Positions 33,230 to 60,100 of a stretch of 64,000 nt of DNA are shown in pieces. Origin of the DNA: Fragilaria crotonensis (taxonomy: Eukaryota; Bacillariophyta; Fragilariophyceae; Fragilariales; Fragilariaceae); assembly GCA_022925895.1 (NCBI GenBank), contig JAKSYS010000004.1:186001-250000 (forward strand). The letters are read 5' to 3'. Position 1 is the first letter of the stretch, and each line of letters starts with the position of its first letter. The notes beneath the pieces were generated by a model. The model ran no database searches, was not told the DNA's origin, and saw only the letters and a list, made by a program, of their open reading frames with translations. Both the position numbers and the translations under genes were made by a program.

Positions 33230-33732
33230 TGTCGAGGATAGTAGGCTACTGGATAAGTCCAGTACCGGTGAGACAGTGAATACTGTCGTTGGCGAAGCTG
33301 AGAGAGATTCGACGTTTGGACGGAATGTCAGATTCGAGTCAGACGTGAACTCGGAATTGAACGCACGACTGAACTGGGATAAAGAATTCGAAATTAATCG
33401 AACTACGGATTTCCAAAGAGTCCAACAAACCAAGATTCCATCGGAGGACGAAAACTATGGAAAGTCAAGGAAGAACATTAAACATGTAGGAGATTGGACA
33501 GAAGTCCACTATAAAAGAACTGGGAAGAACAAGAAGGAGACACAAGGAAGGAAGAAGACAGAAGAAGGTTCTGGAGAGACAGAGAAGGGAACCTGGAAGA
33601 GGAGTTTAGTTAGAACCTAAACTCATAACTTTTACTTTGCTGATTTTGTCAAGGCCTGACAACCGCAGTTATCACCCCATAACCAGAGCAAGTACTGTGG
33701 TACCGCGCTCACGATATCTGGGATTCTCAACA
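33230..33732 (+). repeat. 3' LTR of the Ty1/copia element
   Basis: 503 bp, preceded by a purine-rich tract (GAGGGAGGA) that fits a polypurine tract. It ends 81 bp before the start codon of the next gene, so it may supply or disturb that gene's promoter. Confidence 0.95.
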
Positions 33733-38861: not shown

Positions 38862-40286
38862 TTAATTGTTATTCGGGGCTCTGAGGAACAGGTTTTTCGA
38901 CTTGTTTGGCTTTTTGGTTGGAACCCTCCTTGTTGGTGCACGTGTCGTCGGCCGTGCGGTCGGTGAACGTGTGGGCGCGACGAATCGACCATTTGTGGAT
39001 GGTCCCGTGGCAGCGTTGGTTGGTGCACTCGATAGTCGACTTGTTGGTCGCTTTGTTGGTCGACTTGTTGGTCGATTCGTTGGTGCATTGATGGGCGAAT
39101 TAGTCCGCGCAGCAGACGGAGGAGTTGTCAGTGGACCAAGCACGAATGAACCTTGATCGCTTAGAGCTTGCCCATTCTGTACCCATTGAAGCGTGCGATA
39201 CGACGACGACGGAGATTCGGAGTAAAACGCCTTTGATGGACCTCCAGACATGGTCATGTCCCGCAAGACAACACCGAAAACACCGCCAGATCCTGAAGAC
39301 TGGATACCAACTTCGTGTGGTTGGTTACCTATTGTATTCACGGATCGAATGTTGTTGATATTGATGTTTCGGATGACTTCATCTGGTCGACCATTGAAAA
39401 TGTGGACGGAGCCTTGGCGATCCCACTCTTGATTCTTGTTTGACCGATAAAACAAGCCTCCATTTACTTGTACGTTGCTGACACCGAAGGTATCAAAATA
39501 TGGCTCGCTCCCAACGTACAGTGAGGCGGCGTCACTATCCTCGGCATAGAGATCATTCATGACGATGTCACGGGAACCGACGACTGAAAAGCCTCGACCA
39601 ATCTTTTGCAATCGGAACTTGGGTGACTGCAATACCATGTTGTTGACCTGCGATCCATCCCTCCTGTAGGACACAAATGCTACCCCATCATCTCCCGAGT
39701 TGAATATGCCTGGTCGGACGATAGTTCCAAAACTTGATGCCTCTGTGTTGTGAATGGCATCAGATCGAGTGTTTCTTACAGTCACACGGTCAATGAGATA
39801 ATCGTGGGTGTTGCCGACGTAGATGCCTGCAGCTGCAGCACCTTCGATGGTCACCCCTCGCACCACGATCCCGCGGGAGTTCATCAGTCGCAGCTTCATT
39901 TGTTCGTATCCCATCCACCGTGTTGTGGTGCTCTTCATTTCAAGCACGATGTCATCCATGATGACTCTGTCAGCGTTGATCCAGACTCCAGACCTTGCTT
40001 CGTTTGTCGCCAAAAGGCGACCACCTCCTTTGATTAGTAACGAAGGAACTGTTATCTCAACGATGTCGGAGTGGGCATAGGTTCGACCTGCTGGAATCAG
40101 CAGTGTTGATCCAGGAGGAGCGAGGGAGAAGGCTAAGTTCAGAGCGTCGGTATCATCCGTCACACCATCACCAACAGCACCGTAGGTATCCACCGATACG
40201 GACTGACCTGTGGCTAGCCCGATGAGCAAAGCGACTGTGCAGAGAAGCAGAAGGCGCCATGACGTGGTACTTGATTGGAGCATCAT
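38862..40286 (-). CDS. Secreted right-handed beta-helix protein (pectate-lyase-3-like) with Thr/Pro/Arg tail, copy A
   Basis: A 474-aa single-exon protein. Residues 1-27 are a signal peptide ending LIGLATG. The fold starts at once with VDTYGAVGDGVTDDTDALN and PPGSTLLIPAGRTY, the first coil of the pectate_lyase_3 family, followed by about ten beta-helix turns (VVRGVTIEGAAAAGIYVGN, LIDRVTVRNTR, IVMNDLYAEDSD). The segment NSGDDGVAF keeps a double Asp similar to the GH28 polygalacturonase motif, so a sugar-cleaving role is possible but unproven. Residues about 395-460 are APTNRPTSRPTKRPTS-type repeats, rich in Thr, Pro and Arg, probably O-glycosylated and wall-binding, as in other diatom surface proteins. 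It is divergent from copy B and nearly identical to copy C at 57.8-59.2 kb. Confidence 0.85.
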   Translation of the reverse strand: MMLQSSTTSWRLLLLCTVALLIGLATGQSVSVDTYGAVGDGVTDDTDALNLAFSLAPPGSTLLIPAGRTYAHSDIVEITVPSLLIKGGGRLLATNEARSGVWINADRVIMDDIVLEMKSTTTRWMGYEQMKLRLMNSRGIVVRGVTIEGAAAAGIYVGNTHDYLIDRVTVRNTRSDAIHNTEASSFGTIVRPGIFNSGDDGVAFVSYRRDGSQVNNMVLQSPKFRLQKIGRGFSVVGSRDIVMNDLYAEDSDAASLYVGSEPYFDTFGVSNVQVNGGLFYRSNKNQEWDRQGSVHIFNGRPDEVIRNININNIRSVNTIGNQPHEVGIQSSGSGGVFGVVLRDMTMSGGPSKAFYSESPSSSYRTLQWVQNGQALSDQGSFVLGPLTTPPSAARTNSPINAPTNRPTSRPTKRPTSRLSSAPTNAATGPSTNGRFVAPTRSPTARPTTRAPTRRVPTKKPNKSKNLFLRAPNNN

Positions 40287-40376
40287 GTTGGATTGTTTAA
40301 GGTTGTTTCGACTTTGTGAGAGGTATTAGTTTTATGAGTGAGGCCGTTTGAGTGATGGCCGAAGAATTCGGTGCTT

Positions 40377-40404
40377 AAAAATCTGAAATTCGTGATTCGG
40401 ACAT
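40377..40404 (-). promoter_or_regulatory. Shared upstream motif of gene A
   Basis: Read on the minus strand it is CCGAATCACGAATTTCAGAT followed by T's, about 90-118 bp upstream of the start codon at 40286. The same core lies at a similar distance before genes B, C and D. Confidence 0.55.
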
Positions 40405-41621
40405 GCAATGATATATATACGAGGCAAGGGCTTGACCGTCTACCGGTAGCTTCGTGTTTAAAGTGTCTAAGTCATTTGCGTCGGGCTTGCATGAATTGAA
40501 TAGTTTTTTGTCGTCACAACTCTACCGTAGGATTCAAGACAAAAATATTGTTCGAATATTGCCCGTATATGTAGGTCACGTGGTATACCGTCGTAGTACA
40601 CACCATGTGAAAATGCTCGACCCACTTTCGGTCAAGGACTACCGGTACATGTACTCCACAAGTCTAGTTTGCGATCTCCGCATAATTATGGAAGTCCTTT
40701 CGATCGTTCCCAGGATATTTTCACCCTCGAGTGTATCATAGTACATTTATGGAAGAAACAAACGGCAGATCGGTCATTCTGGGGTTAAGTTATTACTCCG
40801 AGTAGTTCGCATACAGTACATAGCAGGCGCAATTTAAGCTCTGAGACCGAAATGTGTAGGACACACTCAGAACAATTGCATTGTACTGTAGTTGTACTAC
40901 TACCGGTAACACTGGAATACTTTCTCCGTTTGTAGGCTGTACAATTGAGAGTGAAATGTACTACACTATCTACCGGTAGTGCTCGAAGGTAATCCAGTAC
41001 AGAAATGCAAGTAGAACTGGTTTCTGATACTGGTGTACTTGCAGTCTCGGAGTTTCTTCATCAGGAAGGCCTGGTAAAACTCTTGGGTAACGCACCTCTT
41101 TGATTGGTATTATTTGTCTGTAGAACGAACGAGATGTAATCTGATTTTAGAGAGAATTTGCCCACCTTGCAGGTGGACATGGTGGGTATATGCTATATGC
41201 ACTTTCGATATTTCAACGATATAAGCGAAAATGACGAAAAAAATGCCCATTTGCTACAGTGTTCAGACACATATGCCTGGATCTCTGAATCGCAGTTCGC
41301 AGTTCGCAGTCAGCAGTCAGCCTCTCAGATCTCGGACCCATCTCTAGCTTCGCAGTCACGAATTAAAGCATGATCATTATACCGAAGGGGATTTGTACGT
41401 AGAAATGCAGGAGAGTTGAATCTTCACAAGTCACATTTTCTGTACGTTGTCTCATTCATGAGTTGAGAAAGTACTCGAACGACGTTTTTGTCACACATAC
41501 CACATACCACATAATCGATATGATAACAAGTCGATGTAAGTATGCATAGATCATAAATGACCAATGACTGTGACAATTCAAACACGAAGTTTGGACAGTT
41601 AAGCTCCTCGAATATGTTTCT
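40405..41621. other. Spacer between genes A and B, GTAC and TACCGGTA rich
   Basis: No gene. Three TACCGGTA octamers (40441, 40901, 40971) and many GTACT/AGTAC words. Between 41285 and 41340 there are short CGCAGTT and CAGTCAG tandem repeats. Confidence 0.5.
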
Positions 41622-41645
41622 TCGAGTCACGAACTTCAGATTTTT
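41622..41645 (+). promoter_or_regulatory. Shared upstream motif of gene B
   Basis: TCGAGTCACGAACTTCAGAT followed by T's, about 102-125 bp upstream of the start codon at 41748. It aligns with the inverted copy before gene A, so both divergent genes see it in the same orientation relative to transcription. Confidence 0.55.
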
Positions 41646-41747
41646 ACGCAGCACATTCTTCGATCACTAATTCGAAACACTTATCATAAGACTAGTATCG
41701 AGTATCGAGCACGGAGTCGATTAAACGATTGACAGAATCCAACAATC

Positions 41748-44207
41748 ATGTTCGGATCAAGTATCGCTTCATCGCGTCAGCTGATTCTATGCGCATTGGC
41801 TCTGTTCCTCTGTCGCGCAACAGGACAGACTCTCTCCTTGGAGAACTTCGGAGCTGTGGGAGATGGTGTGACGGATGACACCGTCGCCTTGAATTCAGCC
41901 TTCGCTCAAGCTCCTCCTGGTTCAACAATCCTGATTCCAGCAGGTCGAACATACGCCCACAATAACATCGTTCAGATAGGGGTCCCAGACCTTAAAATCA
42001 CCGGTGGAGGTCGCCTTCTTGCAACCAATGAAGGCGGATCGGGAGTCTGGATCAGTGCTGACCGTGTCGTCATGCAAAACATTGTTCTCGAAGTGAAAAG
42101 CACCACGAGTAGGTGGTATACATATGAGTCAATGAAGCTGCGCTTGATGAACTGTCGCGGAGTCGTTGTGCGAGGAGTCACAATTCAAGGGTCAGCATCA
42201 TTGGGCATCCATGTAGCCAACACCTACGATTTCATTCTGGACAAGGTCATCGTGAGAAACACTCGTGCTGGCGCTATTCATATCACTGAAAAGTCTAGCA
42301 ACGGGACTCTTCTCCAACCACAAACATTCAACTCAGGCGATAGCGCCATTGTTATTCAGTCCTCGAGGAAGGACGGAGGCCAGGTAAACAATATTGTGTT
42401 GCAATCCCCAGCAGTTCGACGCGGTACAAAAGGTCTAGCGTACGCAATATTGGGTTCCCGTGACATTGTCATGAATGACATCTATGCTGAAGATAGCGAG
42501 ATGGCCGCACTGTACATATCGGCTGAGAGTTCAACGAATACCTACAGTGTCAGTAACGTGACGGTGAATGGTGGTACGTTGGTTCGTTCAAGCAAGAACC
42601 TAGCAGCCTCCCATGGCTCAATTATGATCTACAACGGCCGGACTGATGAAGTCATCGAAACATCACCATTAACGACGTTCAGTCAGTCAATACCACAAAA
42701 TCTTTACCGTATGAAGTTGGGATTGTATCGTTTGGCTCAGGCGGTGTTTTCTGGGTTGACATTCGAAACATGAAGATGAATAGGGGACCATCACAGGCAC
42801 TGTACTCAGGTCCCTTGTCGTCATACCGCGCATTTCACTGGATCAAAGACGGTCGAGTGCTTAAAGATCTCATCGGATATGGAGGCTTATCCATCCTTCA
42901 CCCCAGAGCAATACGGCGCAGTTGGTGATGGCGTGACTGATGACACCGACGCCTTGAACACATTATTCTCGCAGGCACCCCCAGGAGCTACGATCCGGAT
43001 TTCCTCGGGTAAGACCTATGCCCACAACGACATTGTGGCGATTCGAGTCCCAGCGCTCGTCATCAAGGGGGGTGGTCGCCTTCTGGCGACGAATGAAGCC
43101 AGATCAGGAGTCTGGATCAACGCTGACAGAGTGGTCGTCGACAACATTGTCCTCGAATTGAAAAGCACCACGAAACGTTGGATGGCATACGAGCAAATGA
43201 AGCTGCGCTTGATGAACTCCCGAGGCGTTGTTGTGCGAGGCGTGACCATAGAAGGTGCAGCAGCAGCTGGCATTTTCGTGGGCAACTGCGTTGATTTCAC
43301 AATAGATCGCGTCGTGGTCAGAAACACTCGCGCTTCTGGTATTTACATAACTGAGGGGTCAAGCTCCGGGAACATTCTTCGACCCCAGGTACTCAACTCG
43401 GGTGGAGACGGCGTAGCATTTCTGTCGCAAAAAAGCCACGCAGTACAAGTCAGCAAGATGTTCCTGCAATCGCCTAGGGTCATGTCTTGCCCCTCGGGTC
43501 GAGCCTTCTCTGTTGTGGGTGGCCGAGACATCATCATGAACGATATCTACGCTGAGGATACCGATGCCGCAGCACTGTATATTGCTGCCGAGCCATCAAT
43601 CAACAGCTATGGAGTCAGCAACGTGAAGGTAAACGGTGGTGTGCTCATTCGGTCCAACCAGAATCAAGCAATCGGCCATGGTTCCATCATGGTTTACAAT
43701 GGCCAGCCGTATGACGTCATTGAAAACATCAGCGTCAACAACATTCGGGCGGAGAATACGAAAAACTCACAGCCATGGGAAATGGGGATTATCATGACTG
43801 GGTCGGGCGGTGTGAAGAGAATCGAATTGCGAGACATAATCGCTGTAGGAGGTCCCTCACTGGTTCTCAACGCTCAAAATGATTTGTCAATGTTAAGGAC
43901 GGAGCGAATTGTTCAAGATGGACGAAGACTGGCAGATAAGGTTGGATACAGTGTTGAGTGGACCAGTGCTCCGTCGTATGCACCAACTCGGCCGCCTGTG
44001 CCTGTCTCTCGAGCTGGTCGCCAGCTGTACGTTCGTCGAGGTGCTCGAAATGAGCAGTCACTGAGTGATATGTTCATAGACATCGTCTTATCCTACCCTC
44101 ACAGCTCACCTGAGAATGGAGTACTGCAATGCTGCAATACTATTGAGATTTCGAGGCAACGATACGGCGACAAAGTCCTGTTGTGCACAATAGTTGTCAG
44201 TGTATAA
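41748..44207 (+). CDS. Secreted two-domain beta-helix protein, copy B (indel-disrupted)
   Basis: The signal peptide (MFGSSIASSRQLILCALAL...RATG) is followed by two pectate_lyase_3-like domains in tandem: domain 1 from LENFGAVGDGVTDDTVALN, domain 2 from PEQYGAVGDGVTDDTDALN at about 42900. Compared with copy D it lacks one base near 42656, three near 42810 and two near 42882. The first shift causes a stop at 42771-42773, yet after the third change the original frame is restored and stays open to 44207. Domain 1 has NSGDSAIVI and domain 2 NSGGDGVAF where genes A and C have NSGDDGVAF, so the possible catalytic Asp pair is lost in both. There is no Thr/Pro tail; the C-terminus is short and basic. 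Function may be binding rather than cleavage. The changes sit at or near short runs, so errors are possible. Confidence 0.7.
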
Positions 44208-46831
44208 GAATAGATCGTATGTATGACCAAGGAACTTTTTGTTTTGCATTAATGTGCCATCGCCTTATGTTGTGTATTTGGTTTATGCACTCAGAGGTCA
44301 GAGCATTCGTATCGTTTTGGCCGTGTATCAAAATCTGACCCCAAGGTACAGTACATTCAGGGGCATGGAGCTCGTTGCAGAGTCTGTGTCGAAACGCCGA
44401 GGCATAGCAAACATCGTACACCACTTGGTCCAGAGTCCAGACCCTGACTGAAGTCGTAAAAAAGCTCATTCTCGAGAAACGATCCCGTAGTTTAGAAGCA
44501 AAGTTATATTGACTTTGACCTTGGTCTTAACCAACTCCGTTCGCGCTTCGTACCTCTAGATCTGCACCAGGTTAAGAGCCCTCTAATGTCTATCCTCCCG
44601 AAGGGGTTATTACCCCCGCATTCGCCGATCTCGGATATTCCTTGCCTTATCTTGAACAATGTCCATTGGACTCCATACTTGGCCTTTCTCCTTGGAACAC
44701 TGAAAGGTTTCATGGTTTACATAGGCAATTTCTTAGAATTGTTTTGTAGTTGAGTTATAAAACAAAATCTCAAGCTAAAAACAATGCATGTATTTTTGTC
44801 ATTCAGCATTTTTGACCATGACGTCACATCACGTACAGCTCGCAATGTTCAAATCCAAGTGAGCCCAAAAATGGAAGAAATGATTATCATGACATTGCTG
44901 AAGCAAATGCTGATGACAGTGGGATCCATGCTATCTTGACTATTGGGTAGCCAGAGATGCAACATGAATGTTGATTTCAAAAATGAAACGACAACAAGGT
45001 CTCGAAAAACGGTGACTGTTCACTAAATTTCCCACTCCTTTTGCACCTTTTAAGTTCATTGAGGCCAGAAATATATTAATGAGGCATTAAAAGATCATAG
45101 AAGGTGGCCCACAGGGTGGTATAGAAGATTACATTGAAGTTCTGATGGGCCTTGACCGACACCATTTCTTCAAGCTTTCCCAAATCAGTAGTGCAAGCCA
45201 TTTGGAATTTCAAGCTTGCAGTTCTGCACTTGCTACTTGATAGCTTACTTGTGTAATGGGAGAGGTCCGATCTGGTGTTTTCATTAGCATCAAGATGTTC
45301 ATATTGACCATCATGGTCAACTCTGCTGTCGTTTTTGAGTAGATAGCAGTGATGAACCTATGATGAGGTTAATTAAGGCATATGATGGGCTAAATTAAAG
45401 CAAATCATGGACCATGAGGATAGACACTAGAGTAGAGCAACATGATTACTTTCTGTGAGATCCAGCAGTACACCACAATGTACGCAGGCTGCAAGATTCA
45501 GTAAGTGTCGTGACAAGTGTGAGGATTCGACTATATCAATCTTTATGCATGGCAATTGACCATATTGCTCAAAGCCATTGATATGACCCAGTTTGTATAT
45601 CTTGTAACTGGAGGAAGCAGGGTAGTAGTCTTGGCCATCTAAAGGAGTTCCCCAGTTATGGGTTGGTGCCCAAGGTACTCATCACTGGTTGCTGTGTTGA
45701 GGCAGCACTCAAGAAGGTACTAGCTGAAGAATTTCAAGAGAAACTATTTTACTAAGTCAGTGAGCCGTTCAAGGCTGCAGATTGCATTGCTCAGAGGACT
45801 ATCCCAGATGGAATGCATGGTCAGCAATGCTGAAATCAATACCATCATCATGTTGACCCAGTGAGTGAGGGCATGTTGGGATTTATGAGCTACAGAGATT
45901 GAAATCAGAGTATTGGGTCTAATATAAGATGATATTTCACTTCTTGCTCCTTTTAGTGTCCAAACCAGAACAAAAGATTATATCTTTGTTGCCAATAATG
46001 TGATTTCTCTTCTTGTCTTCATCCCATTCTGTGGTCATGGCCCTGTGATCATGACTCCTCATCCGGATCGCCTTGAGCAGGGCTAGTACATACGTAAAAT
46101 CAACCAGTAGCTAGCTACATACTAGAGAGCACGATCCTTGTCATAGTACGGAAACTCCTGGTAACACATCCGGACCACCATATGATTGCTTCTTTGTAGT
46201 TTCAAAGGGTGACAGCAAGGGCAATACTCTTTGCTTTGGCCCAATACAGTATGTTATTGTGTGATTTGCTCTGTGCTCCCATTCCAAGTTTACCATGGAA
46301 TGCATCAGACCTTTGTATGACATGGCTTGTACTATCTAGACAAATGCTGGTTTTCCTCCTCAAGGTGCTGCTTCAGTGGCTTCCCTGAATAGAAGTGGTA
46401 CTGGAGTATTGCTGTACATTGAGGTTTTGATCATCAACCAAATAGGGAGTAACGTATGGTCAGTTATCTTGACAGACTTTCAGTCGTACAAATAGTTATT
46501 TTCCGATCTCCTCATCCATCCAGGTCTATTTTACAAATTACACATTACTACACAAGTGGACAATAAATCATTTCATAAATACTCGGGAATCAAATCCCAC
46601 TTATCAATTGCAATGATTGTTTTCCTGTTGTTCTTCACTGCAATGACTGTTTTCATGTTGAAACTTAATGAAGATGATCATTTAGTCACCCAACCCCAAC
46701 ACTTGTTTGGCTCACACTGCTCTCTTCAGATGGGCATTTTCTCTGAAACATGCTCTTCAGATGAGCATCATTTCTTTGTGTTTCTGGTGTTCTTCAGAAA
46801 AGGTTGATCACCCATTACACATTGATGACCA
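44208..46831. other. CpG-depleted intergenic block, left flank of the LINE
   Basis: From about 44900 the sequence is poor in CpG: I count 3 in 45061-45480. No protein family is recognised. This looks like an old decayed repeat. The LINE is inserted at its right side, and similar CpG-poor sequence continues after the LINE at 56030-56500. Confidence 0.5.
46818..46831 (+). repeat. Left 14-bp target site duplication of the LINE
   Basis: CACATTGATGACCA at 46818-46831 recurs exactly at 56016-56029, directly after the 3' end of the LINE. Confidence 0.85.
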
Positions 46832-46927
46832 CACAGTTTTCTGGTTTTAGTCTTTGCGCACGTTCTGTACGTCGTTCGTGATTGCGTATCTGGAATAGGA
46901 AGTTGTCGCGTACCCGTAAGCTTGACC

Positions 46928-49479
46928 ATGGCCGACGGAACGGCCCTCATCGCTCCACCGGTAGCCACCCCTGAGGACTGGACGTCCGCGTCCTCTGCTT
47001 ATGGCTTCCATTGCGAGACGTGGCTCGATTCTCCAACTACGAGCGGACCAGATTGGTTTACTCCCGAAGAACGCTCCCGACGCGATGCAAACGAGTATGC
47101 TTATCGTCAGAAAGGGACGAAAGAAAACTGGTATCGTCACATTTCTCTTGGCTTCTTTGTCTTTGAAGACTGTTTCGAATGTGATGAACTTTGGGAGAAG
47201 TTTGAAACCGATCCTCTTCAAGTTCATCGATCGATTTGGTATAATATTCGTTTTCACGTCGATCAAGAAATGAACATTCCACCTAAGTTGAACGACTGGG
47301 CTGTAAACGTGTCCCGAGCCTACCTCTCGCACTTTGATCCCACCACACTCCACGAAACCGATACTCTGGCACATTCCTGGAAGACCATGCCATTCATGAC
47401 ATCTATGGAAGTTGAAGACCACCAGGTAGCTTGGATCCCAGTGCCAGGTCGCCGCCGTTCCAAAAGCCCTCCCACAGAATCTGTCGGTGATTCTCGGTCA
47501 AACAAGTCTACCACATTTCCATCACAGATGCCAGCTCCTGTCAACCTCATTAACCCCAAAATCCTCCAAGATCTGCTGCCAAACAACGTTCACCACCAAA
47601 GAAGCCTCGTCTTTAACAGCAATCTTGGTCGCAAGGATGACAGTGACTGAAGACGATGAGGAGAGCGATGACGGGAAGATACGAGCATCTGACATCCTCG
47701 AGGTTGAAACACTATCCAAGAGTCCCTCTGCAACGCAGTCCAAATCCACTCCTATAAAACAGTGGCAACAAACGACGGCACTCACCGAGTCACAGTCAAG
47801 TGGACGCCACCAGAACGCACTCACAAGTACAAGGGTGATAAGGAAGACTCCATTTATGGGATCATTAGCAATATGATACCATCCGATGTCGGGATACTCT
47901 ACCGCTGGGACAGCAAAGATTTAGTGGCGTCACAATCCGTCAGTGCCATGACTGCATCAGAACTCCGTGATTTCATTTCTCCTGTAGTTGCTTTTCTTCA
48001 CGCTCAGCAAAGGATTGTGTTTCGACTCCGAATCGGGTTCACTACCACACCCGGCCAGTGGATGCGCTCCAAAGCTATGATCACATTCTTTAAGTCCCAA
48101 CAGATAGAAGTTTCTATCTCAAACTCAACGAGCAACAGCGGAAAAATGGTTACGGCAGGTTACGTAGCTACAGTTGAAAGCACCAAACACTACCCATCTC
48201 TCACGCTACACCCAATTCCTGCGCAGTGTTCTCCCAGAAAATGAAAACGTACTTCGACGTTGTGCGACACAAAAAGATGCCAATGGACCAACCGATTCCT
48301 CATCTTCGTATTCAGTGTGGGGAGAAACATGTCACACCCTTGTGTCAAGCGCTACTCCCGGTGTTAACAGGCCATGGTAGTGCTATGTTTATTCCGCGCT
48401 ACGCTCTAGGCACTATGTCCGAAGATAAAATCAAAGGCCATTTTCAATTTCACAAAAAATGGGCACGGTCCCTCAAGGCAATACCAATGTCTCCCCAGGT
48501 TAACCATTTAGACCAACGGCGTACGGAATTCAATGCGGATGGCACCACACGGGAGCGATCTGCGAGAGAGTGGATGTCCACCATTATGGCGCCAGACAAT
48601 TCTTCTCCAGCACTATGCGATGTTGTAAATGGACACCTGGATCATAAAGCATACTTGCTAGTGCCGAGCCACTACTTAGATGTTGCTACCCGCGCGTGGC
48701 GACACTACAAATTGAGCTTGTATCCACCAAGCCATCGAGAAGCCAGCTTTTGTGACAACCTACTGGGGCTACCTGATGTTATTCATATCCAGGCGGAAAT
48801 GCAAGCTCATGTCTCGTTCTTTGAACAATTGTCCGCAGCGTCGGTGTGGCAACAAGCTCCCACGCATACACAACCCCAGTTTACAGGAGGCAGCAAGAAC
48901 GACGATAACGGGCCCACTTCTCTAAAGTTCAGCGACGCTCACCTCCTCGATCCTCTTGGCCGACCCCAGCGGAAAATTCCCAAACTACTCAACCCTGTGG
49001 TGATCATTACAAAGCTGCCAGTTCCACCAGGGAGGGCGGCCGACGTTGATCAACAAAGCGCCAGTGGACATAGCTCCCTCGGTACCAAGGATGGTAGTAC
49101 AGCGTCTACTCACTCGCTCACCCGAGCTTCGAGAACTTCGGTGACGACAGATACGCGATTTCATGAGCATGAGCAATCAGCGCAACGAAAGCTACATGCA
49201 TTAGAGGTCTCTAGCAAGAAGTCAGCCGATCAACTCCTTTCAATGGAACATCAATTGAAGCGGATAGACAATCTGGATCAACAAGTGACTGCCGTTAGTG
49301 ACAAGTTAGACTTCGCAACCGCACAAATGAAGGAAGCAAATCAGACTCAACAACAAATGTCGGTTGATATGGAAAACATAAAGACATATACATCACAACA
49401 ATTTGATGTATTGAACCAACGCCTCTTATCCAATATGGAGAGTCAGCATACGATGTCAGCAACAATACTCGATTTATGA
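46928..49479 (+). pseudogene. LINE ORF1 region
   Basis: The first ATG of the element is 46928 (MADGTALIAPPV). The first frame runs to 47650 with DWFTPEERSRRDANEYAYRQ and a Ser/Pro-rich end. The reading then passes through a second frame (SDDGKIRASDILEVETLSKS, about 47660-47800), returns to the first (VKWTPPERTHKYKGDKEDSI, 47775-48240) and moves to a third (48226-49479), so at least three shifts. The last part ends in a coiled coil of about 100 residues (KSADQLLSMEHQLKRIDNLD, QQVTAVSDKLDFATAQMKEA). It is likely the RNA-binding, multimerising protein, as in other LINEs, but no RRM or zinc knuckle is seen. Confidence 0.7.
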
Positions 49480-50219
49480 GAGCACTTTGCAAAGATGACC
49501 AACACACAGTTGTGCACACGGCCCACATGCAGCGGAGCCTCCCAAGCCACATAGTACCACGCTGGACTAATCTTGCACAACTCCTGTTCGACGAGTAATC
49601 GAGCTCCACTTCAGGGTCCTCGTCTGCGTCTAAAGCATCAGTTCAGTCTACGGCTTCATCAATGGCCCTCCATTCCCCTGAAAACAAGAAATTTTGTTCG
49701 ACTAACAAAGGCGAAGATAAATTCCAGCAGGCATCTTGCGAACAAAAAACCTCCAGTGAGATCGAAGTACCTCCGCGATCAGATTTTATGGATGTATACG
49801 CAAATCTAGAAGACGCCTTCAATCATCAGGATGATACTCAGGTTCAATTGACGCAGGAAGAGCACCCTCTGCCAAACGCCTTGGTCAACCCTTCGGCGGC
49901 TCCTGCACAACACACCCATCAACACACAGCTCACCTAGATCTACAATACAAAATTTCCTTGGATCTAGCTGGAGCGGATGGAGCATGAGCAATCCTCCAG
50001 TAAGCCTCGTTCACACAACCGATGACCCTGCCCTAGTACGGAGCGAGGGCTCAGGACACTGCTGACTCATTGGAAAGAGCCAAAGAACAATGGAAAAACC
50101 TGTTTAGTAGAACCCCGTTGCAATGGGAATCCTCCAGCACAGTCTCTCGCCGACCAAATCGTCTGACAAGAAGAAATCAGCGGGAAAATCACCCATGGGG
50201 GGGGATGTCCTTGCACAGA

Positions 50220-53200
50220 AAGCACAGAACCAGACGCGCATTTATGTTCAAAATGTGAACGGTTTGTCACTCGACCAACGCGGAGGCCAATTGAATGATG
50301 TCTCTCAAGTCGTTCAAGAAACCCAAGCTGACATTTTTTTGTGGTCAAGAGCATAATCTCGATGTCACCAAAATGCGAGTTCGTAGTACCTTATACGACA
50401 CCGTTCAACAGTACTGGGACAACACAAAGTTATCGCGGGCACCACGCCAATTCCATTCTCTACCCAATATAAACCTGGCGGTACGTTGTTATTAACTAGT
50501 CATCTTTCGGGTCGAATTGATAATCAAATCCAAGATCGATGGGGCCGGTGGGTTATACAAGAATTCTCCGGAAGGTCGGGAACCAAGGTAGTCCTCGTGT
50601 CAGCATACCAACCGGTGGAAAAAGAGGCCACGAATGGAACCTCACGGTAGCAGGTCAACACCGCAGCCTCCTCCTGCAATCTCAGGATCCGGTCACTACT
50701 AATCCAAGGTCTGCCTTTCGACGTGACCTTCTATCCACATTACGGAGCTATCAAAGAGAAGGTTATGCTATCCTTCTAGTGGGAGATTTCAACAAATCCT
50801 TTGGTTCAGACCCAGATGGATTACGTTTCGTTGCTGGCGAACTTCATCTGGTCAACCTCGGCCCTTCTCAGCATTCCTCCCAGGTTCCCGCAACGTACTC
50901 CAGAGGCTCCAAATGTCTCGATTATGCACTCGGAAGTTTACGAGTTCGTGACGCCCTGACCTTAATGGGCTACGAATCGTTTAACGCCAGATTGTCATCT
51001 GATCATCGCGGTTTTTCCCTCGACTTTGACACGGCAAAACTCTTCGGGAGCTCTACCCCAGATCTCGTTACACACACTCGCCAAATGTTAAGAGCCAATA
51101 ACGTGCATCAGGTTACAGCGTATATCGATCGCACATACCAACTTCTGGAAGCTCATAATGCATTCGCTAGAAGCCGCCGGTTCACCTTTCCAGGCAACAG
51201 ACATCAATTCGCGGAGCGACTGGACCGCGACGTCCTCGCTGCGAGTCTATCTGCGGAATCCTCCATACCACCGTTCGGTGAGCATGCTTGGTCGAAACAA
51301 TTATCCCGAGCACGACGTCCTCGCGTTCAATCCACTCGGAAATGCCTTTCTGCCATCCGGACTCATTTCGACGTTTCTGGACTTCTTCATGAGTATGCCG
51401 CCGAATTCCCTGAAGACGAAGTTCCACGTACTCAAGGTCAGTGTTCTCGCTTGCTTCGCCTCGCACATTGCGAAATACGTCGCATCGTCAAGGAAAGTTA
51501 CGTCACTCGCGATGCCGAACGTCGACAAAGAATCCAAGAATTGGAGTCTTCGATCCGAGTTTCGGATAAAGAAACCGCACAGCAATTACGTTGACTTCAG
51601 AAAGCAGAAGACATCAAAGCAGTCACCAAGAAGCTTAGAAACGTCCGGGCAAAGAACACTCGGTTGGGTGTCGTACGTCTAGAGATTCCTCTGCATCAGA
51701 GCAACGATCAAAAGACATGTACGCAACGGCAACAAATTGACGTCCCATCGGATATCATTCCTCGTCTCCTCCAAGAAAGAAACCGGCTTCATTTTGGTCA
51801 GGCACAGCATGGGACACCGTTCACTGTCCCCCCATTGTCTGAATTGCTAGGGTATACTGGAATAAGCGCCGCACAATATCAAAAGCTGCGTGGGGAATTC
51901 GATGTAACGGACTACAACGACAGCGTTCAAATGCTTATCCATCACCTTTGATATGCCCACGAGGCATTTCAAGATACTACCCGCCGGCCTATTATGAATG
52001 ATGACGATTTTTGCGCCAAATTGAAACTTTGGTCGAATCAACTACCACCTCCCCATCAGGTATGCGTTTAGGACATTATTATAAATCTCTTATCGCACGC
52101 CACTCGTTTTCCTCCGACGCTTCCGATGAGGATTTGACCCCTGAGTTCAAAGCAAGACGCAACGATTTGGATTTTAAGCAGCGATCTATCCGCACACTGT
52201 GGTTGGAGATTCTCAACTTCGCCCTCGAACGAGGATATTCGTTTCAACGTTGGAAAAAAGTTGTCAATACTATGTTGTTTAAAGATCCAGACAATGTTAG
52301 GCTACATCGAACGCGAGTGATTCACATGTATGAAGCAGACTTCAATTTGTTTCTCTTCAATTTGTTTCTTGGGATTAAGTGGAGAGAAGCGATGCATCAA
52401 GCCGAAGATCTGCGATTGCTGAACGATGGCCAATTTGGTTCTCGCCCATTTCGAAACGCCACCGAGCCGGTCTTCATTGAAGAACTTCAACTCGAAATCT
52501 CCCAAGCAACTCGTAAACCATTGGTTCTCACAACTTACGATGTCACTGCGTGTTACGACCGTATCATTCCTAACCTCGGGATGACCGTCAGTCAGAAATA
52601 TGGTGTTCCTCCGGCTGCCACTGCATGCAATGCGTCTACTCTGGAGCAGGCAGACTTCCATGTGCGCACCGAGCTGGGCATATCTGCCACCGGGTACCAT
52701 CATGAACCTGCGTTCCCATTATACGGCACTGGACAAGGAAGTGCCAACTCTCCAGCCATTTGGTGCTTCCTTTCCAGTACCTTGTTCGATTGCTACGATA
52801 CTCGGGCGCACCGGGCCACGTGTTGGGATACTCACGGACTCGTACAAGCTCTGCTGGGACTTATTGGTTTCGTTGACGGTTGCAATGGACAAACAAATTT
52901 GTTTAGCAGGGATGGATCTCGGGAGACTATGCAAAGCATCGTCGTTTCGCAAGCACAAGAGAATGCTCAATACTGGACAGATGTGTTACACGCAAGCGGG
53001 GGGTCTCTTGAATTAAACAAGTGTTCCAGTCACATACTCCAATGGCAATTTTCTCTGACAGGTGCCCCGGTCTTGGTTCCAGCACATTCATCGAATGATG
53101 TGTCTATCAAAGTATGGGATCGTCAAGCGCAGGAAACCAAAGCCTTGCAAATACTCCCAGCATACACGGCTCACAAGACACTGGGTAATTACAAAGACCC

Positions 53201-55780
53201 TCCGGGGACCCAACAAGAACAATATTGACAGCTGAAGCACAAGAGCATACTCTCACAGAATTCTTGTGGGTGACTCCTCTTACCCGACGGGAGGCGTGGA
53301 CGTTTTACTACGCCTGTTACTTACCCGCAGTGTGTTATCCGCTCGCTTGTTCGTCCCTCACACCGCAGTGTCTCGACAGTGTGCAGCGGAAGGCTATGTC
53401 CATCATCGTTCCTCGATGCGGCTTCAATCGGAACACGAAGAAGGCAATCTTGTTCGGACCTTTGGCTTTAGGCGGAGCTTGTTTTCGGTCTCTTTCAGTC
53501 CAACGAGGTATCTCACAGGTCATGACGTTTATTCGACAGTGGCGGAAACAGTCTACTGCAGGGAAGTTGCTTCACATCACTGTTTCATGGTTTCAGGCAC
53601 AGGTTGGCGTCTCTTTCTCGTTTCTGGATTGCGTTCATGATCCTTTTCCGCACCTTGAATCAAAATGGTTACGTTCTCTGCGTTCGTTTTTGGCGACTAT
53701 CAACGCCAAGCTTCGTCTCGACACTCCATACTTGCCAGAGCTCCAACGATTACATGATTTTTGCATCATGGATGTGATTCTATCCTCGGGGAAATTCACC
53801 TCTGTTGAGATTTGTAAGCTTAACTATTGTCGCTTGTATCTGAAGGCAGTAACGCTGTCGGACCTGACGTGTATAAACGGACGAAAGCTGGACCACAATA
53901 AGACTTCGGGGAATCATTCATGCATCAGTAGCTATACCTGTGGCACATCCATCTATCAAGAGAGACCATCCAAGTCTGCTGCTTGGAAATTGTGGAAGGC
54001 GGCGAATCTCCTTTGGAGTACACGAGACGGCCACCTGATTCAACCCCTAGGTGATTGGGTTCTCCCGCTTCACAAACTATGCCAGCGTCATCCGGCCTAT
54101 CGGTTTTCAGGCCGGTTGTGGGTCCAGATACAAGACAGACATATCAAATGCACCCTGATCTCGGAACGTCTCTTTTGAGAGACACACATCTCCAAGGCTT
54201 GGGTAGAGCTGCCTCCTCAAGCCGTCCCGATGCTAGCGTTCCAACACATGCCACAGCGTTGGAAAATTGTTCATGAAAGTCACACGCTCGAGACTCACAG
54301 CCCACCGATAGCCGGCACGTTTACCCACTATATTGCATCTCTTCCCAGCTGGGAAAAAGAACTTTTGGATCATGTTGAACTGACCGACGATCCGTTTATG
54401 GTCGCAGTCGCGCTCGAGCACGGTATTCGAGCTGTTGGTGACAGTTCGGATTGGCATCAAATTCAAGGTGCTTTTGGTTGGGCACTCAGTACCGATCAGG
54501 GTGAGTGATGCGCTTATGGAATGGGACCTGCCTGTAGTGCGTCCCCTCATGCATACTGCTCTGAGGGTCTCCTATCGCTTTTGTGCTGCCTTCCTTTGTC
54601 GTTTGGCTGAGTTTACGGGAAACATGATCAATGGCTCGGCATCGTAGCAACCGACAGTCAGAGTTTGATTGATACGGTTCAGCAGAAACAAGCCCCAGCA
54701 GCATCTCTGAATGGTGCAACAGTACCCTCTGACACGGACATGGCAACAATCCCCAGTTTCCCATTGGAGCCAACGCTTCCAGAGTGGGATGTTCTCCGGG
54801 GTAGCCAGGCCCTTCTTCACGACATGCCACAACTAGCTCTCCAACACGTCAAAGGTCACCAGGATCGCGACTTTCCTTATCGGCATTTATCCCTCCTCGC
54901 GCAATTAAACGTCGATGCCGATGCTCAAGCCTTGAGATACCAACGCAAATTCGGACAGTTTCGACCAGATGTGTTAATGACCGAATGGGCGGGTGTTCAC
55001 ATAGAATTTCCTAATGGGACAGTTACTACACACTATGAAGTCGCCTTACGATACCAAGCAACGGCGCCCGCGTTACAAGCCCACATTCAGGAGCGCTAAT
55101 CGTGGACACCGCAAACTACTATGGCGGTGGTCAACTGGCATGCTCATGGCAAAGCTATGCAACGACACTAAGCAACACCCACGTGGAAAGCTGGCAGCAC
55201 ATCATCTGTTGTCCCGCGGCATCTCGCTCACGACTCCTGGCGTCAGTCTTTCATTTTGACTGTCGACAAGAAATGCAAGGACTCGGACACCATGCCCCAA
55301 CTCCATGCTTTGTTGCTTAAAGTTATCCGTGAGTGGTGGGCCCACCCACATGCCGAAACAGCTTACCAACTCCACCTTCCCAATGCATCCCCATCGATCC
55401 GAAGATTGGTGTTTCAACAAAATGCCATAGGTTGGAATCATATCGTCTTCTTGGGCCGGTTCAGCCAAGAATCGGGCTCACACCAGGACGAGTACTATGC
55501 GCGCCCAGCCCATACCATTGAAACAAAGCGGTACACAGGCCAGCGATGGCAGATTGCAGTCATTCGCTCCATTTGGCAACAATGGTTTCTCCTCTGGGCT
55601 TTGCGCAATAAGGCTCTCCACGGCGCTGACGCTCGGTTACAAACGCAGGCGGAGCGGCGAGTGGTCGAACGTACGCTAACTGACCTATACGACTACCGGA
55701 ATCAGATGGAACCCAGTGTCCAACAACTATTACATCGCTATCTTGCAGAACATTTCACCAAAACAGTGGCTTATAATTAA
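50220..55780 (+). pseudogene. LINE ORF2 region: endonuclease, reverse transcriptase, RNase H
   Basis: Endonuclease: QNVNGLSLDQRGG near 50250, a frameshift in a T-run near 50335, then ILLVGDFNKS near 50777 and LSSDHRGFSLDF near 50994, the usual N, GDFN and SDHR sites. Reverse transcriptase: frame 52011-53228 with LTTYDVTACYDRIIP (motif A), GTGQGSANSPAIW (motif B) and GFVDGCNGQ (motif C) near 52868, where the second Asp of FVDD is Gly. A thumb/connection domain follows (53225-54178). RNase H near 54470-54930: FGWALS, TDSQSL in a shifted frame, LQHVKGHQD and LNVDADAQA. The C-terminal end (55256-55780) has WFLLWALRNKALHG. Several frameshifts lie between these blocks. Confidence 0.85.
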
Positions 55781-56015
55781 AATTGGCTGGCAGTTCACGG
55801 TCCCTTAATTAAACAGAGCATCAAACGGGCAAAAGCTAAAGCAATTCAAGGGGTCAAGTCCATTCATTCGTACTTCGGTCTCAAGTCTTAACACGGATAC
55901 ACGTGCAAGTATGTTAGCCGCTACCGGCATACGGTGGTAGTGTCTAATCGTGTGGGTCGAGTGTTTTTAATCCGAACACCGCGGCAGCACGTTAAATTAG
56001 ATATGGTTTTTTTTG

Positions 56016-56029
56016 CACATTGATGACCA
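56016..56029 (+). repeat. Right 14-bp target site duplication of the LINE
   Basis: An exact copy of 46818-46831. Confidence 0.85.
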
Positions 56030-57795
56030 ACCAAAATACTCACAATATTTCAACTGGAAATATGTTTAGAAAGCTGCAGGTCATCTCTTCCAATGAACTC
56101 GGATGTATAATTTTACTCACATCATAACTGACCGTGAGACTCATTTTTACCCGCCGTCTGCCATCATCATGGATCATGGTGGTATGATATGCATATGCAT
56201 ACTGTCTTCCAGCCACAGTAGCCTCCTGTGTACTAGTACCCACATGGTGGAAATATGTCAACAGTAGAGACTACCACATAAAAGTGCCTGGAGCCATTTA
56301 TATTAACCCTGTTGGACTAAAGATATCTTGCTCAAAAATGCTTTGATTTCAATTCTGTTTGCTTACAAATACTGTTCAAATGTTCTTGACTACTATCCAG
56401 TGCATTAATCATTCTTGTGCTGAAGCAAGAAATGACAAAGTTGTTGCTCAACTTGCAAAGCTCATTTTTGCATTTATCGGCTCCAGGCACTTCATTTAAA
56501 TGTATACACACCTTACGACTTTTTGGGCTTCGGTTGAGAATTTTTCATCCCAGTTCGTCGATGATTTCTTGTACTTGTTTTCTTCTTGTACTTGTTTTCT
56601 ACTGCTACAGAGTTTTTCCATATTGGTGGTACGCGATCAATGGGGTGAAAACCCCGAGGGCCAAAAATTGCCAACCCTCAACATCTTGTGGCAGCATTCA
56701 CAACCCCAGTTTACTCAGCGGGTTGTTCACCGCTCTAAATGACATCATTTTATATGCATACATATCTGCAGCTTATCCGAGATCAACTCGGCTGTAGCAA
56801 TTTATATCTGCAGCTTATCCGAGATCAACTCGGCTGTAGCAATTTCTGTTGATTTCTTGAAATTGAAGGACTTTCTTTGTATGCGTTTACTCCCAGTTTA
56901 ACGGCTCCAGCGGTCGAAACGGCTCGAGGCACTTTTTTGGTTGTACTCCAGTACCTTGTACCGTACGAGTACTTGTACTACCAAGTACGGAGTACCAAGG
57001 CCAAGGTGTCGTACATAGTCGTAGGTCGCAAAACGTCACCATAGTACCATCAACGCTCCTTCTTGTGCATCTATGCATATCATACATATCATACACATAC
57101 ACATCTTTCCGCTGCAGTGTTCCTCACTCCTCACTCCCTCAGATTTGATACACTCGGAGTTTACAGCGGCGAGAAAATCCTATGCCCACTATGCTTCGCT
57201 ATGTATCGTCACCTGTCGTGTCATTGCTTTGTTTGCCGGCATTGAGCCTTCTGTCATAAAAGTGTTCCTGAAGAATGCTCCACTCGGCGCTGAAGGCCCA
57301 TTGAATGTCTTTTGGCATCCAATCAATTTTTCTTCCCTGAGCAACTTTGGAATATCGTCCCGCATGATCCAATCGGTCCCCTGGTGCACGCTTTGTACCG
57401 TCGGAATCCCAGCTACGCAGAGCTCGAAGTAAAAAGCTTCTCAGATCTGGCCGTGTTTGCTGTCCTCGGCATGTTCTATTCAAGACAATAAACCTCAAAT
57501 TCACACACTTCGCATTTGAGCATATGAAAAAATGATATATTGTGTTTCAGATTCCCCTTTGCTCTCTGGGCACACTTGCAGCCTTTGGTCATTTCGATGT
57601 TGTATTGCATACGTCGGGAGAATGATAATCCTGAAAAACATATGCAGCAGAATACATGTATTGCATTCTATTACATGACTAATCATTACAGCTACATAAC
57701 GACGAGAAAATGGAAACAACACCGCCCTTCCATTGACGCTTCGGTTCTCGCACTCTATGTGTGTCCCCAACATTTCGCTGCTTCAGAGTATATTG
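56030..57795. other. Intergenic region between LINE and second beta-helix unit
   Basis: 56030-56500 is CpG-poor and continues the block interrupted by the LINE. 56762-56845 holds a tandem 42-bp repeat. 56940-57010 is a dense GTAC cluster. 57100-57500 is open on both strands in short frames (for example a minus-strand frame at 57189-57389 with WIMRDDIPKLLREEKLIG) that look protein-like but match no family I know; it may be a gene fragment. Confidence 0.4.
56762..56845. repeat. 42-bp unit repeated twice, with internal palindrome
   Basis: Two identical 42-bp copies in tandem (56762-56803 and 56804-56845). Each contains CCGAGATCAACTCGG, an inverted repeat with a 5-base centre. Confidence 0.9.
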
Positions 57796-59208
57796 TTAAT
57801 TCGTGGGTCTGAGGAACAGGTTTTTCGACTTGTTTGGCTTTTTGGTTGGTACCCTTCTTGTTGGTGCACGTGTCGTCGGCCGTGCGGTCGGTGAACGTGT
57901 GGGCACGACGAATCGACCATTTGTGGATGATCCCGTGGCAGCGTTGGTTGGTGCACTCGATAGTCGACTTGTTGGTCGCTTTGTCGGTCGACTTGTTGGT
58001 CGATTCGTTGGTGCATTGATGGGCGAATTAGTCCGCGCAGCAGACGGAGGAGTTGTCAGTGGACCAAGCACGAATGAACCTTGATCGCTTAGAGCTTGCC
58101 CATTCTGTACCCATTGAAGCGTGCGATACGACGACGACGGAGATTCGGAGTAAAACGCCTTTGATGGACCTCCAGACATGGTCATGTCCCGCAAGACAAC
58201 ACCGAAAACTCCGCCAGATCCTGAAGACTGGATACCAACTTCGTGTGGTTGGTTACCTATTGTATTCACGGATCGAATGTTGTTGATATTGATGTTTCGG
58301 ATAACTTCATCTGGTCGACCATTGAAAATGTGGACGGAGCCTTGGCGATCCCACTCTTGATTCTTGTTTGACCGATAAAATAAGCCACCGTTCACCTGTA
58401 CATTGCTGACACCAAAGGTATCAAAGTATGGCTCACAGTCAACGTACAGTGAGGCGGCGTCACTATCCTCGCCATAAAGATCATTCATGACGATGTCTCG
58501 GGAACCGACGACTGAGAAGCCTCGACCAATCGTTTGCAACCGGAACTTGGGTGACTGCAATACCATATTGTTGACCTGCGATCCATCCCTCCTGTAGGAC
58601 ACAAATGCTACCCCATCATCTCCCGAGTTGAATATGTCTGGTCGAATGATAGTTCCAAAGCTTGATGCCTCTGTGTTATGTATCGCATCAGCACGAGTGT
58701 TTCTCACGGTTACTCGATCTATGAGATAATCGTGGGTGTTGCCGACGTAGATGCCTGCAGCTGCAGCACCTTCGATGGTCACCCCGCGCACCACGATCCC
58801 GCGGGAGTTCATCAGTCGAAGCTTCATCTGCTCCCATGACACCCAACGAGTCGTGGTGCTCTTCATTTCGAGAACGATGTCTTCCATGATGACATTGTCA
58901 GCGTTGATCCAGACTCCCGACCTTGCTTCGTTTGTCGCCAAAAGGCGACCGCCTCCTTTGATGACTAGTGATGGAACTATTATCTCGACGATGTCGGTGT
59001 GGACGTAGGTTCGACCTGCTGGAATCAGGATTGTAGATCCAGGCGGAGCGAGGGAGGCTAAGTTCAAAGCGTCGGTATCATCCGTCACACCATCACCAAC
59101 CGCACCATAGGTATCCACCGATACGGACTGACCTGTTGCGAGTCCGACGAGCAAAGCGAATGCGCACAGAAGTAGTAGGCGCGATGTAACGTTACCTGAG
59201 CCGAACAT
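57796..59208 (-). CDS. Secreted right-handed beta-helix protein with Thr/Pro/Arg tail, copy C
   Basis: A 470-aa single-exon paralogue of gene A, nearly identical over the helix and the tail. The signal peptide differs most (MFGSGNVTSRLLLLCAFALL) and resembles that of genes B and D, which suggests exchange between the divergent genes. It keeps NSGDDGVAF with the Asp pair. Differences from A include one missing residue in the first coil (LNLASLAPP instead of LNLAFSLAPP), GEDSDAA for AEDSDAA, and VDCEPYF for VGSEPYF. The frame is intact and the Thr/Pro tail has the same length. It should be exported to the wall or extracellular matrix. It forms a divergent pair with copy D. Confidence 0.85.
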   Translation of the reverse strand: MFGSGNVTSRLLLLCAFALLVGLATGQSVSVDTYGAVGDGVTDDTDALNLASLAPPGSTILIPAGRTYVHTDIVEIIVPSLVIKGGGRLLATNEARSGVWINADNVIMEDIVLEMKSTTTRWVSWEQMKLRLMNSRGIVVRGVTIEGAAAAGIYVGNTHDYLIDRVTVRNTRADAIHNTEASSFGTIIRPDIFNSGDDGVAFVSYRRDGSQVNNMVLQSPKFRLQTIGRGFSVVGSRDIVMNDLYGEDSDAASLYVDCEPYFDTFGVSNVQVNGGLFYRSNKNQEWDRQGSVHIFNGRPDEVIRNININNIRSVNTIGNQPHEVGIQSSGSGGVFGVVLRDMTMSGGPSKAFYSESPSSSYRTLQWVQNGQALSDQGSFVLGPLTTPPSAARTNSPINAPTNRPTSRPTKRPTSRLSSAPTNAATGSSTNGRFVVPTRSPTARPTTRAPTRRVPTKKPNKSKNLFLRPTN

Positions 59209-59287
59209 GATTGTAGAGTTGTTTTCGGTTTTTGCGCTTTATTTTTTATGAGGTGCCCATCGAATGATCGTTGAAGCGAGATGTTCA

Positions 59288-59314
59288 CAAATCTGAAATT
59301 CGTGACTCGGACAT
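59288..59314 (-). promoter_or_regulatory. Shared upstream motif of gene C
   Basis: On the minus strand CCGAGTCACGAATTTCAGAT, about 80-106 bp before the start codon at 59208. Confidence 0.55.
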
Positions 59315-59982
59315 CCAGCAGGATATTAGGTACTGCGTAGCGCGGGAGCAACTATGATAGTAGGTACAATCGGATTAATATTGAATTTCAAGTTAAATGT
59401 TCGAGGCTTCTTAGTAGTCCCTGGCGTCGCTCTTCCACAAAGGCAATCCTCTTTATAGCAGACGTACACGAAAAGTCGTTCGAGTTATGTCCCGTTTTCC
59501 TTCGCAAATATGCGAAATGACAAATTCACACGTGCTTCAGTAATGCCTTTCCTCATCGGTATAAATGTAGACCACGTCAGAAAAACGATATTTAATGAAA
59601 GTTCTTTCGATCTTTTCCTCGACATTTGATTTGTCCCACACGGTATAAAAGAGACAAAAGGGTGCCACACATCGGGAGTTCACACATGCTGGGTGGCCAG
59701 GCGCTTATTCGCATGTATATTATATGTACAGTATATGTTTTAGACAGTTGACAATAATTCTTCGTCTTCTTCGAAGTCCTTTCGATCTGTTCCAGGACAT
59801 CTTCATCATATACATACATGCGTAGGAGGTATTTTTACTTAAACTGACTTATTCGAAAAACGTACTCGTCACCTTTGAGGACAAAATGCGTCCATTTAGG
59901 CATGCGCGACCCAAACGCTGGCGACAATTTGAAAACGAAGTTTGGACACATAAAGCTCTTCGGTTATACTCGAGTACGTTTG

Positions 59983-60003
59983 AACGAGTCACGAACTTAA
60001 AAG
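59983..60003 (+). promoter_or_regulatory. Shared upstream motif of gene D
   Basis: AACGAGTCACGAACTTAAAA, about 98-118 bp before the start codon at 60101. The inner core GAGTCACGAACTT is kept; the CAGATTT part is lost. Confidence 0.55.
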
Positions 60004-60100
60004 CGTTTGTGCATCACATTTTCACCACTCACTCGATAACATCTCATAATACAGAGATCGAGCAGAAAGTCGAGTACAACGTTGACACAATCCAACAATC

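Follow-up and report, generated by a model that had tools for sequence, protein, structure and literature searches.

The window analysed here comprises 64 kb of contig C548 of the diatom Fragilaria crotonensis (GC content 46.4%), taken from a genome assembly of 62.1 Mb in 881 contigs. It contains four genes for secreted-type beta-helix proteins, named A to D, and the subject of this study is a short sequence block that recurs upstream of each of them. The genes are part of an array of eight, arranged as four head-to-head pairs, of which A/B and C/D lie inside the window and E/F and G/H just past its edge (C548, ~252-263 kb). Gene A (38862-40286, minus strand) codes for a beta-helix protein of 474 amino acids with a Pect-lyase_RHGA_epim domain, a signal-like N terminus and a Pro/Thr-rich basic tail. 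Gene C (57796-59208, minus strand; 470 amino acids) is its paralogue and 93% identical. Gene B (41748-42773, plus strand) covers the first beta-helix domain in a frame that stops at 341 amino acids, with an open reading frame (ORF) for the second domain downstream (42879-44207). Its paralogue D (60101-61774, plus strand) stops at 557 amino acids, within the second domain.

Upstream of A, B, C and D, and in the sense orientation of each, an exact copy of the 13-mer GARTCACGAAYTT is present, ending 99, 111, 87 and 102 bases before the ATG, respectively. In A it reads GAATCACGAATTT and is followed by CAGATTT (40379-40398, minus strand; 13-mer at 40386-40398). The same extension follows GAGTCACGAACTT in B (41624-41643, plus strand; 13-mer at 41624-41636) and GAGTCACGAATTT in C (59289-59308, minus strand; 13-mer at 59296-59308). 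In D, GAGTCACGAACTT occupies 59986-59998 (plus strand) and CAGATTT does not follow. A leader AATCCAAC precedes the ATG in A, B and D, taking the form AATCCAACAATC immediately 5' of the start codon in B (41736-41747, plus strand) and D (60089-60100, plus strand); C has ACAATC only. An initial annotation of the window had reported a shared motif about 100 bp upstream of all four beta-helix genes, an extension CAGATTT in three of them and a leader common to three, and these observations are confirmed, with the 13-mer 87-111 bp before the ATG, the extension in A, B and C and the leader in A, B and D. The word 'all', however, holds within the window only, as E to H of the eight-gene array lack the motif. 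No other exact match to the 13-mer occurs in the window. When up to two mismatches are allowed, the window contains 10 matches against 8.1 expected, so only the exact form is special.

The upstream flanks of the four genes share more than the motif. Compared over 250 bp, the A and B flanks prove homologous in inverted orientation along ~245 bp, with a local alignment score of 390 against a shuffle maximum of 195. Within the A-B spacer, an inverted-repeat arm of 40 nt that contains the A motif (40360-40399, minus strand) pairs at 85% complementarity with the arm that contains the B motif (41623-41662, plus strand). A second pair of 27-nt arms (85%), farther upstream of A (40450-40476, minus strand) and of B (41563-41589, plus strand), is colinear with the first. 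The initial annotation had argued that the inverted motif pair in this spacer was not due to duplication alone. As the two flanks are inverted homologues, the pair does not exclude duplication and the argument no longer holds. Most other flank comparisons are also well above chance, with scores of 308 for A-C, 350 for A-D, 466 for B-D and 229 for C-D, none of which was reached by 200 base shuffles (shuffle maxima for the flank alignments, 181-210).

The trees fit this picture in large part. In a tree of the upstream regions of A, B, C, D and G, A and C stand apart from B, D and G with 91% bootstrap support, and the coding sequences separate A, C, E and G from B, D, F and H with 100% support. 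For A to D the two trees therefore agree, placing A with C and apart from B and D. An upstream grouping of A with B received a p-value of 0.04 in the approximately unbiased test (p-AU; 2,000 replicates, which the program rates as too few). Gene conversion between the A and B promoters was raised as a possibility since the A-B score exceeds that of A-C, and was rejected, as the tree test supports A with C and speaks against A with B. Taken together, the A/B flank homology and the trees point to an inverted duplication of gene and promoter, followed by duplication of the pair, which explains the four motifs. An ancestral beta-helix gene would have given rise to a head-to-head copy that included at least ~200 bp of its 5' flank, and the resulting divergent pair would subsequently have been duplicated into A/B, C/D, E/F and G/H. 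We infer this order of events.

Two further contigs, C303 and C215, match C548 at ~97-98.6% identity, in the same order and in blocks of 4-20 kb, and are most simply interpreted as alternate haplotypes. On C303 the A-B spacer measures 8.6 kb, compared to 1.46 kb on C548. The extra ~7.2 kb (C303, 29287-36510) lies between the points that match window positions 41509 and 41568, so that its edge falls ~180 bp 5' of the B start codon. Both genes keep their own motif on C303, which, together with the length of that spacer, argues against a shared bidirectional promoter. The extra DNA also includes most of a 500-bp stretch resembling C548:249794-250295. Per 250-bp flank, the alternate copies differ at 7 and 8 positions for A, 2 for C and 7 for D, and B is identical over the last 180 bp. 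These differences all lie outside the 13-mer, although the copies are too similar to add any weight on the question of selection.

Within the homologous flanks the block is better preserved than its surroundings. An alignment of the A-D flanks has 127 ungapped columns, of which 41 are invariant. In the 13-column window at the motif, 11 of 13 columns are invariant, a value reached anywhere in the alignment in 75 of 20,000 column shuffles; an 18-column block there, with 14 invariant columns, was matched in 24 of 20,000. The other window sizes that were tried, 10 and 20 columns, gave 208 and 173 of 20,000. After removal of the block the best remaining windows are weak (329 of 5,000 shuffles for 10 columns, 452 of 5,000 for 13 columns). 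A and C share a 26-bp segment at the block with 25 identities. The pairs E-G and F-H served as controls, being 93% and 95% identical over the first 600 coding bases (A-C: 89%). Their best ungapped blocks, of 37 bp and 23 bp respectively, both lie at most 45 bp from the ATG. Judged from these alignments, the block is likely under constraint, with an excess of conservation over the homologous DNA around it.

The position and neighbourhood of the block suggest what this constraint may be. All four genes have an AT-rich, TATA-like box that begins 12-21 bp ahead of the block; in A, where the distance to the motif is 21 bp, it reads TATATATAT (40411-40419, minus strand). The sequence TCAGATT, which matches the initiator consensus YYANWYY, starts in A, B and C 12 bp into the motif, at its last base, and 26-35 bp after the start of the AT box. 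This combination suits a core promoter, which is the likeliest reading of the block. We consider the motif to be probably the best-kept part of one ancestral promoter that was copied along with its gene, likely a core promoter near the transcription start. The flanks of A to D would have drifted after duplication, with the 13-20 bp block ~100 bp before the ATG retained, most likely because it forms the core promoter around the transcription start. The 5' leaders of these genes would then be ~85-110 nt long. The role of the block itself, either as a start-site element or as a factor-binding element, is likewise inferred.

Several observations weigh against this combined reading of inheritance and core-promoter constraint. 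On the side of descent, the B-C flank score of 176 was reached by 9 of 200 shuffles and is unconvincing alone. Gene G is A-type by its coding sequence, yet groups upstream with B and D. The coding tree leaves the pairing of B and D unclear, as D joins F and H at 54%. On the side of constraint, the conservation test compares only four sequences, and with gaps allowed the control flanks E-G and F-H are homologous over ~200 bp (scores 189 and 235; 0 of 200 shuffles each). E to H lack the block even though G shares clear flank homology with A, B and D. As E to H do without it, with G retaining only TCACG at that place, the block is dispensable for the family. On the side of the core promoter, D has neither CAGATTT nor an initiator-like match at the corresponding place, and the AT-box and initiator patterns are loose and come without a chance control.

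Half of the array lacks the block. In the 300 bp upstream of E to H, read in their own sense, the best copy of the motif has four mismatches and is equalled by 62-70% of shuffles; gene F has one copy with three mismatches upstream, in the opposite sense. A 92-position sequence model of the flank recovers nine copies in 134 kb, namely A to D and five copies on the alternate contigs, and none at E to H. The motif thus precedes four of the eight array genes on C548 and is not a family-wide feature.

A genome-wide scan for the exact 13-mer gives 27 matches, compared to one for the reversed control pattern and 8.5 sites expected by chance (47.4% GC, independent bases). Nine of the 27 are array genes A to D and their alternate-contig copies. 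The other 18 fall into nine contexts unrelated to the beta-helix family: one dispersed repeat (six matches), a second repeat (four), a third place present in two near-identical copies, and six places that occur once. The six-copy repeat measures ~400-500 bp, and its copies are 95.8-99.8% identical. Counted one by one, the 18 matches outnumber both the expectation and the reversed control; counted as nine contexts, they agree with the expected number, so the motif marks no wider gene set that we could see. For the 13-mer and the PF12708 family, enrichment before many genes of the class across the genome was not observed. When the A and B flanks were searched against the genome as DNA, they matched only the array and its alternate copies (the A flank missed B, C and D).

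The longer 20-mer GARTCACGAAYTTCAGATTT, scanned with up to three mismatches, gave 36 matches, compared to six for its reversed control. Seven are family copies without mismatches, D and its copy not being included, and six represent one dispersed repeat. The other 23 have one, two or three mismatches in 1, 3 and 19 cases, against 0.03, 0.86 and 14.1 expected, and the four with one or two mismatches were inspected. The single-mismatch copy, on the minus strand of contig C76, lies 32 bp 5' of the ATG of an unrelated 327-amino-acid ORF without a Pfam match; it is the sole 20-mer match that chance does not easily explain (0.03 sites expected). Two others, on C34 and C267, are near-identical copies of one place, and the fourth, on C544, falls within a 354-codon open frame whose start precedes the analysed stretch. 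A wider regulon, sought with both the exact 13-mer and the 20-mer at up to three mismatches, was rejected as no evidence for it was obtained.

Other readings of the block can be weighed against these data. The block may be a cis-element peculiar to one clade, retained by selection in either orientation in A to D and lost in E to H, as an instance of promoter subfunctionalisation within the array. We regard this as possible but rather doubtful. If true, the array would be split into two regulatory sub-groups of secreted beta-helix genes. That the motif is a cis-element is plausible, since its conservation exceeds that of the homologous DNA on either side, but the wider module proposed in the initial annotation is unsupported.

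It is unlikely that the block is more specifically a gene-specific transcription-factor site, for instance for a basic leucine zipper (bZIP) protein, that co-expresses A to D and separates them from E to H. Such a site would correspond to the module of the initial annotation narrowed down to four genes. The excess conservation of the block, its presence in A to D and its absence from E to H agree with such a site. So does GAGTCA, which starts the block in B, C and D and which we take to resemble an AP-1/GCN4 half site. A, however, carries GAATCA instead, and TGASTCA, TGACTC (in sense orientation) and the heat-shock-type GAANNTTC occur in none of the four 200-bp flanks. The nine other contexts of the exact motif are close to the chance number, despite a reversed control of only one, and the adjacency to the AT box fits a core element better.

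Plain inheritance without function, in which the duplicated DNA happened to keep this block by chance, appears similarly improbable. It accounts for the four flanks forming one homologous set over ~200-250 bp, it is not contradicted by the alternate-contig copies, which are too similar for a test of selection, and it would suit the interrupted reading frames of B and D in this assembly. Against it, shuffling seldom brings invariant columns together as they are at the block, at any of the four window sizes (24-208 of 20,000 shuffles), and at that distance from the ATG nothing comparable survives ungapped in the controls E-G and F-H. It is very improbable that the block is an element of the leader RNA or derives from a dispersed repeat, a piece of which landed upstream of these genes. 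Of the 18 exact matches elsewhere, 10 do sit in two dispersed repeat families, but over 30 bases 5' and 32 bases 3' of the 13-mer these repeats are unlike the A-D flanks. The flank model finds only the nine known copies in its 134 kb, and the flank searches, of limited sensitivity, match the array and its copies only.

A genome search with protein A returned at least 35 matches (90 of 147 candidates scored), of which 33 lie on C548, C303 and C215; the two remaining ones, on other contigs, are weak and cover the Pro/Thr-rich tail only. The PF12708 profile gave 19 matches in the genome, each of them on one of these three contigs, in the array or its alternate copies. Proteins A to D match this profile with 40.6, 40.4, 41.5 and 68.9 bits (curated cut-off 27) and have, judged by eye, a signal-like N terminus. 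Outside the window, E and G have open frames of 434 and 441 amino acids, F has an open frame of 755 amino acids with two beta-helix domains, and the frame of H stops at 503 amino acids. Compared to the open frame of F, the B-type loci at window positions 41748-44207 and 60101-62404 are interrupted. The interruptions in B, D and H may reflect introns or assembly errors as well as lesions.

For protein A, the closest solved sequence and fold is Arabidopsis ADPG2, a plant polygalacturonase (~16% identity in the fold match), followed in the fold search by a GH87 glucanase, the surface adhesin PfbA and phage proteins. Because protein A was modelled with low confidence (mean predicted local distance difference test, pLDDT, of 56), this search supports only the description 'pectin-lyase-like beta-helix'. 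On sequence and model, A to D would fit polygalacturonase-like enzymes as well as adhesins. The designation 'wall or adhesion proteins' in the initial annotation is thus unproved, since enzyme and adhesin are not separable from these data. Its proposal of a dedicated module for such proteins finds no support either, given the 18 exact matches in nine unrelated contexts, the lack of the motif at E to H and this equal fit to enzymes. In the titles and abstract openings of the literature surveyed, we noticed no mention of this gene family or of the motif.

Some features of the surroundings may be recorded as well. Copia-type retrotransposon ORFs (gag, integrase-like and reverse transcriptase) precede the array at window positions 28251-33617, and an ORF between the A/B and C/D pairs (52011-53225) matches RVT_1 with 26 bits, under the curated cut-off of 29.6. 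The genome further has 19 matches to silicon transporters and 61 to light-harvesting proteins, which mark it as that of a diatom. One open frame of 1456 codons (C97:29749-33762) comprises three silicon-transporter units and resembles the multi-SIT (silicon transporter) genes described for Synedra (PMC6114903). The published assembly of strain SAG 28.96 is summarised as 61.85 Mb in 879 nuclear contigs with 47.4% GC (PMC9476933).

The initial observation is therefore true, and its explanation is mostly an ordinary one: a duplicated promoter with one constrained block that is absent from half of the array. Taken alone, the finding does not establish a new kind of regulation. With four paralogues that carry the block at a constant spacing from the ATG, four that lack it, and their alternate copies, the array makes a compact natural experiment, which can serve the search for the core promoter of an araphid diatom or for a gene-specific element.

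Among known systems, the INR+FPR (initiator plus flanking promoter region) supramotif of oomycetes is alike in being a block of ~16-20 nt, ~50-110 bp from the ATG, in a stramenopile. It is defined as YCAYTYY followed after ~2 nt by MWTTTNC (PMC3599244). As a candidate identity for the block it was rejected, since YCAYTYY occurs in none of the four 200-bp flanks and MWTTTNC once, in D; the same source describes INR+FPR and FPR as apparently lacking in the diatom Thalassiosira pseudonana (PMC3599244). The eukaryotic TATA/initiator core promoter, from which the consensus YYANWYY is taken as given there (PMC3599244), differs in that a canonical TATATA is found in A only. At the protein level, the array resembles the pectin-lyase-like proteins of PF12708 and the GH28 polygalacturonases, A to D in their profile match and A in its nearest solved fold, and differs from them by the Pro/Thr-rich basic tail of A, C, E and G and by the two-domain form of F.

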